A DNA stretch of 64,000 bases from Vampirovibrio chlorellavorus (GTDB lineage Bacteria; Cyanobacteriota; Vampirovibrionia; Vampirovibrionales; Vampirovibrionaceae). Below, one piece after another: positions 7,872-40,304 of the stretch; the stretch's first letter is position 1, and every line of letters starts with the position of its first letter. A program made the translations under genes and the position numbers. Under the pieces are notes generated by a model. That model was not told the DNA's origin, made no database searches, and saw only the letters and a list, made by a program, of their open reading frames with translations. The DNA lies in contig LAPX01000007.1 in the NCBI GenBank assembly GCA_001858525.1, forward strand, positions 124,001 through 188,000, read 5' to 3'.

Positions 7872-8900
7872 GTGTTTGACCCCGTTACGCAGGCATTCTG
7901 GATTCCCTTCATTTTTATTGTAGGGCTTTGCGTGGGCAGTTTTTTAAATGTCATGGCCCTGCGCTTTCTGGCCGATGAGCCCATTGTGCTGCCCCCGTCC
8001 CATTGTCCCCAGTGCAATACCAAACTGCGCCCCATTGATAACATTCCCGTAGTCAGCTACTTGCTACTGGGGGGTAAATGCAACAGCTGTAAAGCCTCTA
8101 TCAGTATTCAATACCCGCTCATCGAGCTGGCCACCGGGGCACTGTTCTGCTTTACCGTTTGGTTTTTTGGCCTGAACTGGCAATCGGTTTTTTTAATGTT
8201 TATGATTGCCAACCTGGTTGTCATTTTTATCACCGACCTGCGGGAAAGCCTGATTTTTAATTTCAACTCCATCTACATGCTCATTCCGGCCGGGCTGCTC
8301 TACAGCCTGCTGAATCTGGGCGGGATTGAGGGAACGGCCTTTACTCTGGACCTGGGTTCTATTGTGCTGCATGTCCCCGAGGCCATCACTTCGGCCCTGC
8401 TGGCCATGCTCATTTCGCTGGTCTTCTTTGAGGGCATGATCCTGCTTTCGCTGTTCTTCTTTGGCACAGAGGGCTTTGGTCACGGAGATACCTTTTTGAT
8501 GATGGGCGCTGGCGCATTTTTAGGCTGGCCGCTCACGGTTTTATCGCTGGGTCTCGGGTTTCTGGCACAAACCATTCCAGCCATCCCCCTGCTGATTATT
8601 CAATGGATTCAAAACAAGCAGTATGTCTCTCTCATCTCTGGCGCCGTGGCCCTAATCGCTGGCACCAGCCCGATGCTGTTGATGAACGCCGGCCTTCCCG
8701 TGGAAACCACCACCTGGATCAGTTTAGGCTGCCTTTTGCTCTCGCTGGTTTCGCTGCTGGTGTTCCTTAAACAAGTTCGCACCGCCCAAACCTTTACGTA
8801 TTTGCCGCTAGGCCCCGCCCTGATTATCGGCATTCTGGTGTCCCTGTTCTGGGGAAATGATTTGATAGGCTGGTACCAGCACTACTTGCTCCGGCACTAG
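7872..8900 (+). CDS. pilD: type IV prepilin peptidase / N-methyltransferase
   Basis: Polytopic membrane aspartyl protease that cleaves leader peptides of type IV prepilins and methylates the new N-terminus. The N-terminal A24 domain shows VGSFLNVMALR and a zinc site of two CxxC pairs (CPQC near residue 42, CNSC near residue 66). The catalytic aspartates are ITDLRE near residue 120 and the GHGD motif near residue 203. About eight hydrophobic segments are present. Length (342) is somewhat above the usual 230-290. The start is a GTG at 7872 after AGAAAGAAAA. A pilin substrate candidate is encoded at 37370-37984. Confidence 0.92.
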   Translation: MFDPVTQAFWIPFIFIVGLCVGSFLNVMALRFLADEPIVLPPSHCPQCNTKLRPIDNIPVVSYLLLGGKCNSCKASISIQYPLIELATGALFCFTVWFFGLNWQSVFLMFMIANLVVIFITDLRESLIFNFNSIYMLIPAGLLYSLLNLGGIEGTAFTLDLGSIVLHVPEAITSALLAMLISLVFFEGMILLSLFFFGTEGFGHGDTFLMMGAGAFLGWPLTVLSLGLGFLAQTIPAIPLLIIQWIQNKQYVSLISGAVALIAGTSPMLLMNAGLPVETTTWISLGCLLLSLVSLLVFLKQVRTAQTFTYLPLGPALIIGILVSLFWGNDLIGWYQHYLLRH

Positions 8901-9784: not shown

Positions 9785-10843
9785 ATGACTGAGCTAAGCC
9801 AATCCCCCCCCGCCCCCACTGAAATTCTCAACCTGAAAGAAATCGAAAAGCTGCCCGCTTCGGCCAAAGTGGTCATGTCTGGCATGCGCCCCACCGGAAA
9901 GCTCCACTTGGGGCACTATATGGGGGTTCTCAAAAACTGGGTCACTTTACAAAAGCAGTACCCCTGCTTTTTCTCCATTGCCGACTGGCATGCCCTGACC
10001 ACCAAATACGATGACACGGCCAGCTTGAGAGAGAACATCCTTGAAATGGCCCTGGACTGGCTGGCCGCAGGGATTGATCCACAAAAAGCCACCCTGTTTG
10101 TGCAGTCTTCCATCCCGGAAATTGCCGAATTACATTTACTACTAAGCATGATTACCCCAGCCAAGTGGGTACAAACCGATCCCACCCTGAAAGACATGGT
10201 GGCCATGCTGCATGAGGATTTGTCTTACGGGTTATTGGGCTATCCAGTGCTGCAAACCGTTGATATCCTCTCGGTTCGGGCAGGCCTGGTGCCGGTGGGC
10301 AAAGACCAATTGGCGCATTTGGAGATTTCCAGAGATATTGCCCGACGCTTTAATCACCTTTACCAGACGGATTTATTCGCCGAACCTCGCCCTCTGTTGA
10401 CCGAAACGCCCATGCTGATTGGCCTGGATGGCCGCAAAATGGGGAAATCCTTCAACAATGCCATTTACTTGAGTGATTCCGCCGAAGAGACCTGGAGCAA
10501 GGTCAAGACGGCCATTACCGATCCGGCCCGGGTCAAACGCACCGACCCTGGCAACCCGGAAAATTGCGAAGTGGTTTACAAGTACTATCAGGCCTTTGCC
10601 GATCAAAGCGCCCAGGAATTGACCGCTGAAGAATGCCGTTCCGCCAGCCGTGGCTGTATGGACTGCAAAAAGCAGCTGGGTGAACTGATTAACGCCCAAA
10701 TGGCCCCGATGCGGGAACGAAGAGTCCTGTATGCTTCCGATAAGGTCCAGGTTGAAGCCCTTTTAAAAGCTGGCAGCGAAAAAGCCCGGGCCCGTTGCCA
10801 GGAAACCCTTCAGCAAGTTAAAAGTTTAATGAAACTGTTCTAA
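9785..10843 (+). CDS. trpS: tryptophanyl-tRNA synthetase
   Basis: Class I synthetase that charges tRNA-Trp in the cytosol. The ATP-binding HIGH-type signature is GKLHLGHYMG (about residues 38-47), preceded by the family hallmark GMRPTG, and the KMSKS loop reads KMGKS. Conserved EIAELHLLLSM and VGKDQLAHLEISRDIARRF are also present. The start chosen is the ATG at 9785, giving 352 residues; the open frame continues upstream to 9662, but that stretch contains the promoter. A C8 tract occurs at codons 7-9. No trp biosynthesis gene is adjacent. Confidence 0.95.
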   Translation: MTELSQSPPAPTEILNLKEIEKLPASAKVVMSGMRPTGKLHLGHYMGVLKNWVTLQKQYPCFFSIADWHALTTKYDDTASLRENILEMALDWLAAGIDPQKATLFVQSSIPEIAELHLLLSMITPAKWVQTDPTLKDMVAMLHEDLSYGLLGYPVLQTVDILSVRAGLVPVGKDQLAHLEISRDIARRFNHLYQTDLFAEPRPLLTETPMLIGLDGRKMGKSFNNAIYLSDSAEETWSKVKTAITDPARVKRTDPGNPENCEVVYKYYQAFADQSAQELTAEECRSASRGCMDCKKQLGELINAQMAPMRERRVLYASDKVQVEALLKAGSEKARARCQETLQQVKSLMKLF

Positions 10844-36016: not shown

Positions 36017-36250
36017 CTAGTAAGCGCAGGCTCTGACAAAGGCCTTGACGTCCTGCTCTTTTAGTGTGCCTGAAGCGGTTTCCCGCATATCTTGTTCAAA
36101 AACGCAGCCGAGCAACTGCTGCCCTTCCAGTACCGGCATTGAATCCAACCGGTGCAAGCGCATCAGGCGCAGGGCTTCAGATGCGTAATCGTTGGCGGAA
36201 ACAAACAAAGTTTCCGAATGATGGTGCTGGGATACAGTGCGCAATGCCAT
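36017..36250 (-). CDS. single CBS-motif protein
   Basis: A 77-residue product consisting mostly of one CBS motif (FVSANDYASEALRLMRLHRLD, then SMPVLEGQQLLGCVFEQDM). CBS motifs usually work in pairs and bind adenosine nucleotides; one alone would need to dimerise. The frame is open to 36376, but the upstream part (RVGPGRWACAHNTR) does not look like protein of this family, and GGGAGA lies 12 bases before the ATG at 36250. It may be a remnant of a longer CBS protein or a real small sensor. Confidence 0.55.
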   Translation of the reverse strand: MALRTVSQHHHSETLFVSANDYASEALRLMRLHRLDSMPVLEGQQLLGCVFEQDMRETASGTLKEQDVKAFVRACAY

Positions 36251-36507
36251 GGCCGTGATGGTCTCCCTTTGCGAATGTCGGTTAAAAATGCAGCTGAATG
36301 TCAGCAGCCTGGTGTTGTGCGCACAGGCCCATCGGCCCGGCCCAACCCGAATGGCAAAGGTCAAAGACCTTGCCATAAGGCTGCTCGGTTTATTTCCAGA
36401 TTAAAACTAGTGATTAAAGCGAATAAATAAAACTCTATGGATTGGCGGCCCGAAAGTCTATTACCCAAACAGGCAGCATCAGCCACACCGTTGAGAGACA
36501 AGGCTTT

Positions 36508-36665
36508 AAATCAGGGAAGGCAGCCCTCACAAGCCGTTTGTAACTGTTTGAGTACAGCGAGTTAAAAATTGTTGGCTTGGCAGCACTGCCAGAAGCAGTT
36601 CTGCGGTTTGTTTGAGGTGCACGCAGTTTTACAAACGGCTTGTGAGGGCTGCCTTGCCTGATTAA
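36508..36665. mobile_element. MITE-like element with long terminal inverted repeats
   Basis: A 27-base perfect inverted repeat (36517-36543 and 36629-36655; arms begin AAGGCAGCCCTC) extends outward with one mismatch through CCTGATT on each side, giving arms of about 36 bases around an 85-base centre. Both ends abut TTAA/TAA, which could be a short target duplication. There is no room for a transposase. The size of about 150 bases, long arms and AT-rich borders fit a miniature inverted-repeat element; a very long hairpin with regulatory role is the alternative. An open frame across it (36435-36689) is a by-product. Confidence 0.55.
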
Positions 36666-36672
36666 ACCCCCT

Positions 36673-36710
36673 GAAAAAGAAAAAAGCACAACCCAATACT
36701 GGCGTTGTGC
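36673..36710 (-). terminator. Rho-independent terminator on the minus strand
   Basis: On the minus strand GCACAAC (36710-36704), an 11-base loop, GTTGTGC (36692-36686), then TTTTTTCTTTTTC. It can end transcripts coming from the pilin-like gene at 37370-37984 or from any small RNA or ORF in 36711-37369. Confidence 0.75.
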
Positions 36711-37369
36711 GCGCTATGAGGAGTTAACTGTAAGTGCAAGTTGAAGTGAAGCTTTGAAAGTCAGAAGGAGGAGAATTGAAGTGCAAATGCGGAGTGAAAT
36801 CTTATGTTATTAATATAGACAAGAGTCCAAAAAACTTTAATTTTAGACCTTAATGCCTATCCCCCAAGGGTTTCACCCCCTAAAAACCCCTCATTTTACG
36901 GTAAAAAACCCCAAAAAAGAAACAAATCTTAACAAAAAACCAGCAAACACCCTCCCTGAAGGCATTACGGCACCTTCGGGTGAACCAAGGGATGCGTGGA
37001 AGATTGAACCGGCATTCCCACCGTTAAAAACGAGGGCAAGGACGCATGCGGGTTTCGCCGAAGGATAGGGGGCACCGCCTTGCCCAAGGCCCCATCCAGT
37101 GTGCTCCCCCGTTGTTCCTGAGCGGCTCCACTGGCCTCGTTCTGGAGAAATTGCAAGAGGCACTCTTCGTTTAAATTCATCATGGGTGCTTACCTACCTG
37201 GACTCCCCAAGGGGACCCGCCTACACCCTTTCATCTTAACCAAACGGCCCTACATTCATCATCGACCAACCGATTTAAATTTCCCCTCCGCCCAAAGATC
37301 TACAGTAACCAAGGTAGAAGGTTAAGCCTAAAATACTTGGGATAGAAGTATAGAACAAAGCCCAAAAGC
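36711..37369. other. 650-base stretch with no clear gene
   Basis: Short overlapping frames occur on both strands, none with similarity I recognise. It holds an AT-rich block (36770-36940), then a GC-richer block. The stretch lies between a minus-strand terminator and the pilin-like gene, so it is probably the 3' part of the pilin transcript or an eroded gene. Composition differs from the flanking housekeeping genes. Confidence 0.4.
36965..37183 (-). CDS. possible small protein (72 aa)
   Basis: A weakly supported frame. It starts MMNLNEECLLQFLQNEAS, a plausible helical N-terminus, with AGGTAGG about 8-14 bases upstream, but the second half (PSFLTVGMPVQSSTHP) looks random, as if frame-shifted. 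It is on the same strand as the pilin-like gene upstream and the terminator downstream. It could be a degraded gene. Confidence 0.25.
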   Translation of the reverse strand: MMNLNEECLLQFLQNEASGAAQEQRGSTLDGALGKAVPPILRRNPHASLPSFLTVGMPVQSSTHPLVHPKVP

Positions 37370-37984
37370 TTATTGCCAACTAAACCAAGAAGGATCAAAA
37401 ACAGAAGCAGAGGGTAATGCGCCCAAACTATCTACACTACCCACCCGAGTCGTGCCACGGGTAGTCAGACCGCCGTTGTAATACAATACAAATTCCACAG
37501 ACTTGCCTGAACTATCAGCCGTAGAGCCACTGTATATCCCATCCGGGTCATAATCGAAACGAATGGCGTTCAGAGAACTAGTTCCATCAAAATACCATGA
37601 TGTAGCAACTAAAGTACCACCTTGATGAAGCTTCAGGCACACAACCCCTGCATTTGAGCAATTATGACTACCGTAGAGAGGATGCATATCCACCAGAGAG
37701 GTGGTGTCCACGCTCACGTAATTCATATAGGGCGTTAGGTCAGACGCTTTAAAATTAGCGGACAACACACCAGCTTGAGCCGCCTGCTGATAAGCCCCGC
37801 TGATCATGGCAGCCACCTCTTTGGCCGCAGCCACCTTTTGGCTGTTTTGCTGACTGCTCAGCAACTTGGGAATGGTAAAGGTGGCAATCACGCCCAGAAT
37901 GGCCAAGCTAATCAGCAGCTCCGCCAACGTAAAACCCCGGGTGATTTTCAGTCGCTTGCGGGGGGGGGGGGGACATAAGAACAT
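37370..37984 (-). CDS. type IV pilin-like protein with homopolymer tract at start
   Basis: A 204-residue prepilin: a basic leader, the prepilin peptidase site RG followed by FTLAELLISLAILGV (Glu at mature position 5), a hydrophobic N-terminal helix, and a globular part with two Cys close together (HNCSNAGVVC), typical of minor pilins or pseudopilins. AAAGG lies ten bases before the ATG. Codons 4-8 consist of a run of 13 Cs (37960-37972), so one-base slippage would shift the frame before the signal peptide; a second ATG at 37976 lies in another frame and would become productive after a +1 change. Prepilin peptidase is encoded at 7872-8900. Confidence 0.82.
   Translation of the reverse strand: MFLCPPPPRKRLKITRGFTLAELLISLAILGVIATFTIPKLLSSQQNSQKVAAAKEVAAMISGAYQQAAQAGVLSANFKASDLTPYMNYVSVDTTSLVDMHPLYGSHNCSNAGVVCLKLHQGGTLVATSWYFDGTSSLNAIRFDYDPDGIYSGSTADSSGKSVEFVLYYNGGLTTRGTTRVGSVDSLGALPSASVFDPSWFSWQ
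37960..37972. repeat. 13-base poly-G/poly-C tract
   Basis: Thirteen consecutive G on the plus strand (C on the coding strand) within codons 4-8 of the pilin-like gene. It is the longest homopolymer noticed in the window. Such tracts change length by slipped-strand mispairing and also invite sequencing error. Confidence 0.9.
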
Positions 37985-38021
37985 CTACAACATACCTTTA
38001 AATTTGCCTAAACCAATAAAA

Positions 38022-38046
38022 AGCAGCTTCTATCAAGCTGCTCTTT
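38022..38046. terminator. hairpin able to terminate in both directions
   Basis: AGCAGCTT (38022-38029), a 5-base loop and AAGCTGCT (38035-38042). Plus strand follows with CTTTATAT, minus strand with TTTTTATTGG. It lies in the 211-base gap between the divergent pilin-like gene and the 38196 gene, upstream of both, so what it would terminate is unclear; a short minus-strand RNA is one option. Confidence 0.5.
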
Positions 38047-38195
38047 ATATCGACACGCCCCTCAAAAACTTTAGGGTCATTTTGAAAAAAATGCGATTCA
38101 AAATCCGGCCCCTGCTCCCCCAATCTTGAAAAGCCTTGTAGTATTGAAGAAGAGCGTTCTGGTTTCAAAATCGGTGAGGGAGTGTTAAACACCAT

Positions 38196-38849
38196 ATGAA
38201 TCAATCATTACTCAGAAAGGCGTTTGGCCTTTTGGCAGTCGGGCTTTGTATTCTACAGAACCAAATACCCAACGCACAGGCTGAACTGTGCGGCATGGCG
38301 GGCTCCAACGCCAGTATTCCGGGTGATAAGTATGCTGGCTACTGGCAAACCACCTTTGGGCTAATGCGTCTGGTGCAATTTGGAACCAACTGGGTGGAAG
38401 GTCCCGGCAGTGCTTCTGGCTACATTCGGGGTACTCAGTCGGGCCCCCTGCTGGAAGGCCGCCTGGGAGAAGATCCCGGCCAGTTGTATGGGGCCAATGT
38501 GCACTTGCAAATGACCGAAGGCGGCCGCTGCCTGAAGGGCACTTATGTCTTTGACGGCGACAAAGAAGCCAATGAAATCCTCGGATTTCGCATCCAGCGC
38601 CCCAGTCAGCCCTACAGCTTTTATTATGAACTGACCGATCGTACTGAGCAATTGAAGCGGATGATTGGGGGGATACTGGACTTTAGCACCCTGGAAGGCC
38701 CAGACGTCAGAGTATTCCCGCCGGGTTTTGTACCCGGTGCCATGCCGACGGTAATGCCGTCAACGTTGTCCCCCTCGCCCAGCAGTGAGGAGAACACCGA
38801 TCCGGAAGCCCATGAGGACAATCACGAAAGCCCTGAGGGCTACGAATAA
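38196..38849 (+). CDS. secreted hypothetical protein with lipocalin-like repeat pattern
   Basis: A 217-residue exported protein: signal peptide with core FGLLAVGLCILQ and AQA before AELCG. The mature part shows alternating W/G-rich strands (GYWQTTFGLMRLVQF, then GSASGYIRGTQSG, LEGRLGEDPG, GGRCLKGTY), a pattern seen in beta-barrel or beta-sandwich proteins that measure 'W.T.FG.M.L...G.Y....G.L.G'. The C-terminal 40 residues are Pro/Ser then acidic (disordered). Function unknown. It is tail-to-tail with the 38853-39254 gene. Confidence 0.62.
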   Translation: MNQSLLRKAFGLLAVGLCILQNQIPNAQAELCGMAGSNASIPGDKYAGYWQTTFGLMRLVQFGTNWVEGPGSASGYIRGTQSGPLLEGRLGEDPGQLYGANVHLQMTEGGRCLKGTYVFDGDKEANEILGFRIQRPSQPYSFYYELTDRTEQLKRMIGGILDFSTLEGPDVRVFPPGFVPGAMPTVMPSTLSPSPSSEENTDPEAHEDNHESPEGYE

Positions 38850-38852
38850 GCC

Positions 38853-39254
38853 CTAAATCCGTTCATCCAGATGATAACAAATAATGGCGCCCACCAATGG
38901 GCCCACAAGCATTCCAATCATCGGGATGCTTTGCCCTGCCGACCAACCCAGACTGGCGCCAGCCAAAGCACCATCCCAATTGGGATCTAAGGCTTTGGGC
39001 ACGGGGGCTTTACGGAGTCCCTCAAGCCCTGATTGGCCTTGCTCCGCCTGGGCAAACTCGGCCTGATTAAACATAAAAGCCTGAATCTGCAGGCTTTGTT
39101 CCGGTTTTTGCAAAAAGTTTAAAAAGCCCGTGCATAAAACAGCAAACAGCCCGCCCAGTAATAAAACAGCGGCCAACAGACGATTACCGCCTTTAATCAG
39201 CAGGCCAGTGCGATAATGGGCCAAGTACAACCAGTTGCGGTCAACGTCACTCAT
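38853..39254 (-). CDS. hypothetical membrane protein (133 aa)
   Basis: No family recognised. The ATG at 39254 has AAGGAG five bases upstream. One clear transmembrane helix near residues 27-45 (LLAAVLLLGGLFAVLCTGFL) and a weaker Gly/Ala-rich one near the C-terminus (GASLGWSAGQSIPMIGMLVG and PLVGAIICY), with a Gln/Glu-rich loop between. A two-helix hairpin protein is likely. It neighbours other small exported proteins. Confidence 0.55.
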   Translation of the reverse strand: MSDVDRNWLYLAHYRTGLLIKGGNRLLAAVLLLGGLFAVLCTGFLNFLQKPEQSLQIQAFMFNQAEFAQAEQGQSGLEGLRKAPVPKALDPNWDGALAGASLGWSAGQSIPMIGMLVGPLVGAIICYHLDERI

Positions 39255-39349
39255 GCGGACTCCTTCCAAACCCGTCTATTCCTGTATTGAAAAATGGGTC
39301 TGAATTGATGCAATATATAAATATAAAAACAACCAAATGGGCGGAATTG

Positions 39350-39366
39350 CTCAGCGCGACGCTGAG
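39350..39366. repeat. 7-bp perfect hairpin
   Basis: CTCAGCG and CGCTGAG around CGA, in the 243-base gap between divergent small genes. No T run; possible operator. Confidence 0.35.
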
Positions 39367-39497
39367 GTTCCCTAAACCCTGTCAGATTGGCTGTAAAATA
39401 GAGTGAAAGACACCACCCGGCCGTTCAAAAGGAAGCGGCAAGGCCAGATTCGAGTACGGCTAAATCAGTGAGAGCATAAAACGGTGAATCAATAAAA

Positions 39498-40151
39498 ATG
39501 ATGAGTTTGCGGCATTTACGGCTAAAAAAATATACCGGGATTATTATATTTTTATCCCTGCTGCTTTGCCTATTCACCGGGTGGGCAGTGGCCGAAAAAA
39601 CAGTGACTGCCAAGGCCCGCATCAGCAGCGATGCGGAACTGGCACAACTCAAGCAGGATTTGGACAAACTGGACACCCTGGTCAGCCAAGGATTAGTGGG
39701 GGAAGCCTCGGTGCTGGTGGGGCAGGAAATTCGGGCCAGAGATATTTATCGACGCTATCTGGATAAAGCGGCCTCCATGAGCCAGGAACTGCTCCGGGTC
39801 AGTCAGAAAATCAACACGGCCGGTCAGGATATTTCCCTGCAACAACTGGGAGCCATTTGCCAAAAAGTCAGTCTGGCCAACCTGCGGTTTAAATGTGCTT
39901 TCCAGCACGGCGAAGAGCATTTTCAGAGTTATCAGCTCATTCAGGAAGCCCTGTCCAACCTGGAAGCAGCCACTGAATACTGGCGCGTTTCAAACCGCTA
40001 TCGCAAGGTCTATCGGGGCGGGGCCAAGGAGCAAATGGATGATGATGAAATTCTGAGAGTTCGTCTGCTAAAAGCGGTCAACGCCATTGATGAACTGAAA
40101 ACGCTTATGGACACCCGAGCGGCCCTGTCAAAAGATCTGGAAGAAGATTAG
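39498..40151 (+). CDS. exported coiled-coil hypothetical protein
   Basis: No family recognised. The 217-residue protein has an N-terminal hydrophobic segment (YTGIIIFLSLLLCLFTGWAVA, residues 12-32) that is a signal peptide or anchor, with VAE as a plausible cleavage context. The remainder is strongly helical with heptad-like patterns (ELAQLKQDLDKLDTLVSQGL and LLRVSQKINTAGQDI), two Cys (AICQKV and FKCAF) and an acidic end. A periplasmic coiled-coil role is inferred. MM at the start leaves a choice of two adjacent ATGs. Confidence 0.58.
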   Translation: MMSLRHLRLKKYTGIIIFLSLLLCLFTGWAVAEKTVTAKARISSDAELAQLKQDLDKLDTLVSQGLVGEASVLVGQEIRARDIYRRYLDKAASMSQELLRVSQKINTAGQDISLQQLGAICQKVSLANLRFKCAFQHGEEHFQSYQLIQEALSNLEAATEYWRVSNRYRKVYRGGAKEQMDDDEILRVRLLKAVNAIDELKTLMDTRAALSKDLEED

Positions 40152-40248
40152 ACAGGCCTTTACACATGCCCCACGGGCTGCCTATTGCCGTTGCCCGTCT
40201 GGGTAGGTCCGGGCGCTTTGGGCGGCTGCTTGGCTTGGGCTCGCTTCT

Positions 40249-40277
40249 TTGGTAAAGTGGGCCCGTAGGTCAATATT
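40249..40277 (+). promoter_or_regulatory. possible ahcY promoter
   Basis: TTGGTA (40249-40254), 17-base spacer, AATATT (40272-40277). Weak. The preceding 90 bases are GC-rich with a GCCCG/CGGGC hairpin, but the SAH riboswitch core was not found. Confidence 0.35.
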
Positions 40278-40304
40278 TAAACGATATGACCGCAATGAAT
40301 TTAG

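Follow-up and report, generated by a model that had tools for sequence, protein, structure and literature searches.

A pilin gene of Vampirovibrio chlorellavorus with a tract of 13 cytosines in its leader is, judging from genome sequence, very probably a contingency (phase-variable) locus. Read in the same way, pilin genes with slippery repeats in their leaders number dozens to hundreds in the Vampirovibrionia, a non-photosynthetic class of the cyanobacterial phylum. The window, i.e. the whole stretch of 64,000 nucleotides that was analysed (G000:C26:124001-188000), belongs to an assembly of 3.03 Mb in 28 contigs, here called G000. The features discussed are listed in Table 1.

Table 1. Positions within the window of the pilin gene, its leader elements and the prepilin peptidase.
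Feature	Position	Strand	Evidence
Type IV prepilin-like gene, 204 aa	37370..37984	-	ORF, profile matches and predicted pilin-like architecture
C13 tract, leader codons 5-9	37960..37972	-	direct reading; 13 G on the plus strand
Start codon, first ATG	37982..37984	-	pilin frame at n = 10, 13, 16 C (re-translation)
Second ATG	37974..37976	-	pilin frame at n = 9, 12, 15 C; unfavourable distance to Shine-Dalgarno
Shine-Dalgarno-like AAAGG	37995..37999	-	direct reading
Conserved Gly codon of GFTLAE motif	37934..37936	-	motif match; predicted prepilin peptidase cleavage after Gly
Stand-alone pilin cassette, ~0.82 kb (823 bp)	37307..38129	-	absent at the syntenic site in G002 (L265) and G004 (L266)
Prepilin peptidase, PilD-like	7872..8900	+	PF06750, 115 bits (G000:C26:131917); ORF

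The product of 37370-37984 matched the Pfam profile N_methyl (PF07963; 26.6 bits against a cut-off of 21.2) and the NCBIfam profile IV_pilin_GFxxxE (TIGR02532; 28.4 bits against 16.3), both above the curated cut-offs, and shows the GFxxxE cleavage and methylation motif followed by a hydrophobic helix. Its leader is short and positively charged (MFLCPPPPRKRLKITRG), with 17 residues before the cleavage site. The mature part was modelled (pLDDT 80.5) with a helix at residues 4-54 and beta strands thereafter, and the predicted model thus shows a long N-terminal helix with a beta-sheet head. Best fold match in the PDB was the pilin FimA, with a probability of 0.96 but an E value of 0.06, and the PDB sequence matches of the window pilin were pilins, but weak. 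A prepilin peptidase is encoded in the pilin's own genome; the one in the window carries the sole A24 N-terminal domain (PF06750) found there. The original prediction had called the frame from ATG 37984 a clear prepilin, and on its profile matches and predicted architecture the gene encodes a true type IV prepilin.

The gene begins ATG TTC TTA TGT CCC CCC CCC CCC CGC, and its C13 tract is the only mononucleotide run longer than 8 in the 64 kb, where a first-order model predicts 0.01 runs of at least 13 for C and 0.003 for G. The original prediction had located this 13-base run exactly (37960-37972, G on the plus and C on the coding minus strand), and it was right that the first ATG reads into the pilin frame at 13 C, which is the ON state found in the assembly. 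Its assignment of the tract to codons 4-8 has to be corrected to codons 5-9. The second ATG had been expected to come into frame after gain of one C, with no product after a further gain; re-translation at n = 9-17 C gave the full pilin from ATG 37984 at 10, 13 and 16 C, from ATG 37976 at 9, 12 and 15 C, i.e. after loss of one C or gain of two, and zero pilin at 11, 14 and 17 C, so that gain of one (14 C) is the silent state. These frames agree with the earlier idea that two of three tract length classes can be ON, but the Shine-Dalgarno-like AAAGG lies 10 nt upstream of ATG 37984 and 18 nt upstream of ATG 37976, and the latter has no Shine-Dalgarno at a usable distance, which makes it more likely that the gene would be ON at one tract length in three rather than two. 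A real start downstream of the tract had been named beforehand as an objection to switching. The usual start codons are excluded there by the sequence, since no ATG, GTG or TTG occurs in the pilin frame between tract and GFTLAE (CGC AAG CGA CTG AAA ATC ACC CGG). The tract is of a size to slip and separates the start codon from the pilin frame, so each one-base change would switch translation. A promoter-type switch of the Bordetella fim type was considered and ruled out, as the tract is placed after the start codon in coding sequence. Elsewhere in the window, we observed a C8 run (9804-9811) about 7 codons past the likely start ATG 9785 of a tryptophanyl-tRNA synthetase-like gene.

Slipped-strand mispairing with a change of frame is the established mechanism for such tracts in Campylobacter (PMC6321876), Neisseria and Haemophilus (PMC5084427, PMC2651432). 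In the pilin gene, it would act in replication by gain or loss of Cs in the leader tract, and a single-base change would toggle pilin translation between ON at 13 C and OFF, while weak initiation at the second ATG would give a product at 12 or 15 C. The switch would thus work at prepilin translation, and the repeat would be free of cost in the mature subunit because the prepilin peptidase would remove the tract-encoded leader. Paralogues sharing a conserved N-terminal helix could enter one pilus while differing in the C-terminal domain, and independent repeat switches could yield a population holding many pilus surface variants. Type IV pili were proposed to aid attachment of V. chlorellavorus to Chlorella (PMC4451040), and the variants might plausibly serve attachment to prey or host, or escape from phages. 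What the sequences show is the tract, its frames, the pilin family, the enrichment of leader repeats and the length differences between leaders that are otherwise identical; how fast the tract slips, and that the pilin is expressed, joins a pilus and has such a role, is what we infer here.

The window pilin is one of a large family. A protein search gave 42 pilin matches in G000, where the paralogues occur in tandem arrays; four congeners had between 8 and 40 matches. Across 39 paralogues the first 20 residues were near-invariant (mean 0.96) and the remainder varied. At least nine paralogues carry leader repeats, of the types C9, C10, C11, C13, C26, (CAGA)n, (GACA)n, (AAGA)n and (CTCA)n, and a tenth (C16:163) has C14 in a longer leader. 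Judged by the best Shine-Dalgarno plus ATG, the nine repeat leaders comprise three in the ON and six in the OFF state, as would be expected from random frames. Tandem sibling pilins differ in repeat number (C5 versus C9; 2 versus many CTCA units).

Pattern searches across the genome, on which the repeat counts rest, found 15 C tracts of at least 9, of which five fall in pilin leaders and a sixth in a pilin leader of greater length, and all four GACA, AAGA or CTCA arrays of at least 4 units were located in pilin leaders. With leaders defined as 80 nt x 42 genes and strand-specific counting, the enrichment was significant for C tracts and tetranucleotide arrays (binomial p ~1e-13 each), where the latter value holds for the three motifs counted, which were picked because they had been seen in leaders, and is partly circular. 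Such enrichment of repeats in surface or variable genes across a genome is typical of contingency genes. Among congeners, the lone GACA array of G004 is in a pilin leader; an (AAGA)n array in G002 lies away from any pilin, so that tetranucleotide arrays of the genus do not always mark a pilin.

The repeats might also have built up with no switching role, given a weak constraint on the prepilin leader, which is cleaved off and whose sequence varies widely between paralogues. We consider this extremely unlikely: repeats are not seen in other sequence free of constraint, as there is one tract of such size in 64 kb and the tested tetranucleotide arrays occur nowhere else in G000, and frame-breaking lengths precede intact pilin frames, which would not be tolerated if the coding repeats were neutral.

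Two further kinds of tract-bearing gene were observed. A TolC-like outer-membrane protein gene, recognised by eye (L072 position 962, G000:C3:33461), has C9 directly after its start (ATGGCCT, then C9), is in frame in the assembly and is a possible further phase-variable gene. In a second pilin class (L091, L097, L103, L104 and L106 in G001; L078 in G000:C16), 150-170 nt separate the C tract from the GF motif downstream of it; the tract precedes a conserved extension of ~45 residues (LWLACCSSLCLKPSPWLMEKARRDLGWLPSACHQRAIG), which gives a prepilin leader of unusual length.

Tract length also differs between otherwise identical leaders. Identical flanks of 40+40 nt enclose G10 and G11 within one genome (L296/L275), and C11 and C12 in another (the L234 pair; L191/L162). 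Tract lengths hence differ between near-identical sequences among paralogues of related species, as they do in contingency genes, which indicates that tract length changes faster than bases are substituted, and each of these one-base differences (10 versus 11; 11 versus 12) flips the frame. Together with the repeats in at least nine leaders and their enrichment there, these pairs back the phase variation that the original prediction had put forward as an inference. A tandem pair of pilins was also observed (L355, G097:C42), which shares 45 nt upstream and the 24 nt from the tract to the motif start and has G12 in one copy and G10 in the other.

Long homopolymers are error-prone, lengths in metagenome assemblies could be off by one, and some related contigs end at such tracts (G006:C44, G030:C15, G123:C35). 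An assembly or sequencing artefact, by which the true tract length would be off by one or more, nevertheless appears very unlikely to us. The tract recurs across many independent genomes and assemblies, C tracts of up to 26-30 were assembled, and tetranucleotide arrays are not prone to such error.

A syntenic orthologue of the window pilin, sought for a comparison of tract length, was not found in G002 and G004, where the site is empty and has no pilin motif. In these two congeners the sequences on either side of it (36026-37306 and 38130-40300) are retained with ~80% identity and lie ~50 bp apart; the 823 bp with the pilin are absent, and the cassette has thus been gained or lost. Pilin genes were thus seen to come and go as single units (L265, L266).

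The paralogues might be silent donors for gene conversion in the style of Neisseria pilE/pilS, the tract being a recombination or G-quadruplex element, and both the tandem arrays and a G-run that adjoins the gene on one strand would fit such a role. There is hardly any probability that we would give to it, as most paralogues are full-length genes with a Shine-Dalgarno and ATG of their own and not truncated silent cassettes lacking start sites, this start is in frame in 49 of 59 tract-less genes at genus and family level, and several leaders carry tetranucleotides that are incapable of forming G4 DNA.

We screened 84,980 species genomes for C9 before GFTLAE and obtained at least 113 stretches. 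Among the matches listed, all informative titles were Gastranaerophilales/Melainabacteria or Vampirovibrio, and the rest read 'uncultured bacterium' or Fusobacterium sp. CAG:439; the record with the latter title has the pilins with C9 before a GFTLAE-type motif. Within the class, a C pattern with a shorter motif matched 47 of 382 genomes and a G pattern 31 of 137. No C-tract pilin pattern was found in ~80 genomes from other classes of the phylum. Reversed control patterns gave 0 matches in the G-tract scan, 0 for the longer phylum pattern and few in the short C-tract class scan. Two genomes that we assign to the Gastranaerophilaceae (G044 and G083) had 114 and 152 pilin matches, with G or C tracts in most of the sampled leaders. 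These genomes (L269-L328) are ~2 Mb in size, and the pilin matches make up an exceptional share of their gene content.

In the Gastranaerophilaceae, tract lengths are not random with respect to frame. Taking Shine-Dalgarno plus ATG as start, 50 genes of G044 and G083, sampled by protein and blind to the tract, were one base short of ON, 4 were ON (~7%, 4/55) and 1 was one base long. The genera g53 and g34 showed the opposite offset, with 19 genes one base long, 2 ON and 1 one base short, in a sample selected by a pattern of G9 or more or C9 or more; C9-or-more selection is biased against shorter ON lengths. Direction is a property of the genus: tracts lack one base in g15 and g47 and have one too many in g53 and g34. 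The offset is seen in poly-G and poly-C leaders alike. ON length differs from gene to gene with spacing, and across tracts of 10-13 the offset persists. Starts of tract-less pilins are mostly in frame. Leader copies share descent, which makes the offset counts non-independent, and a systematic length error is a possible contributor, though many assemblies are involved.

Such a constant offset between start and main frame, found in several Gastranaerophilaceae genera, would also be produced by programmed slippage, in which RNA polymerase or ribosome slips at a fixed rate, the pilin level is set and the DNA length conserved. The offset recurs in nearly every gene despite varied spacing, and 132 of 182 OFF genes lack any other start codon in the pilin frame, and just 9 have one with a Shine-Dalgarno. 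As an explanation of the window gene we nevertheless hold programmed slippage to be unlikely. That gene is in frame, and in its genus no offset bias was found, as ON and both OFF frames occur. The tetranucleotide leader repeats of the genus are poor slippery sites, and G11 and G10 forms of one leader coexist within a single genome. Equal offsets of poly-G and poly-C leaders argue against tRNA-specific slipping, and we found no supporting RNA structure. A candidate hairpin in Gastranaerophilaceae, in which the Shine-Dalgarno would pair with a GCTCC conserved downstream of the G tract, seemed persuasive on inspection but was rejected, since its helix lengths and folding energies were similar to those of shuffled controls.

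The offset rather suggests a default-OFF repertoire, in which the consensus tract is kept one slip from ON; programmed frameshifting is the less likely cause of it. The non-random tract lengths in Gastranaerophilaceae imply that simple neutral switching fails to describe the whole class. It is possible, if rather doubtful, that in this family most of the more than 100 pilins per genome stand one base off and that pilin is made solely by slippage, either through rare DNA slips, which would leave few pilins ON in any one cell, or by programmed slippage of RNA polymerase or ribosome across the entire gene family, with the window gene as the Vampirovibrio member. A lineage-fixed one-base offset raises the question of how these pilin genes get expressed.

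Most known cases of phase variation by simple repeats come from pathogens, among them Neisseria, Haemophilus, Campylobacter and Helicobacter. In the Vampirovibrionia, a class with a lineage of algal predators and with gut bacteria that are common but uncultured, it would act on very large type IV pilin families, and extreme pilus heterogeneity within gut populations is predicted. The literature that we searched, in which subscription papers were thinly represented, contained no link between Gastranaerophilales and phase variation, and mentions of pili in Melainabacteria concerned just the presence of pilus genes. As far as tested, the kind of system is known, and the host group, the scale and the one-base offset are new.

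In Bordetella pertussis, fim2 and fim3 have a poly-C tract in the promoter and encode fimbriae of the chaperone-usher type. Both there and here fimbrial subunit genes bear a poly-C tract, whereas here the pilin is of type IV and the tract lies in the coding sequence of its leader. Within Neisseria, the tip adhesin gene pilC has a coding poly-G tract. Homopolymeric G/C tracts are also what our system has in common with the Campylobacter phasome, in which, to our knowledge, no single protein family dominates; in contrast, one pilin family dominates here (114-152 matches in the two Gastranaerophilaceae), with an ON share of ~7%. Campylobacter poly-G contingency tracts are mostly 9-10 long; each genome has 5-81 phase-variable genes, and the ON share across a large collection of draft genomes was close to neutral drift (PMC6321876). 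In Haemophilus influenzae, surface structures vary in phase through tetranucleotide repeats (PMC2651432), and the loci are best known for LPS; such repeats are shared with our system, where several unrelated repeat types occur within one pilin family. Pilin variation in Neisseria had been cited as precedent by the original prediction, and the parallel holds for variation of type IV pili as such and is looser for the mechanism, as, according to a review of Neisseria adhesins, pilE varies by recombination with pilS and the phase-variable poly-C tract of opc is in the promoter (PMC3960869). Recombination with silent cassettes is the main mechanism there, whereas here each full-length paralogue carries a repeat of its own.
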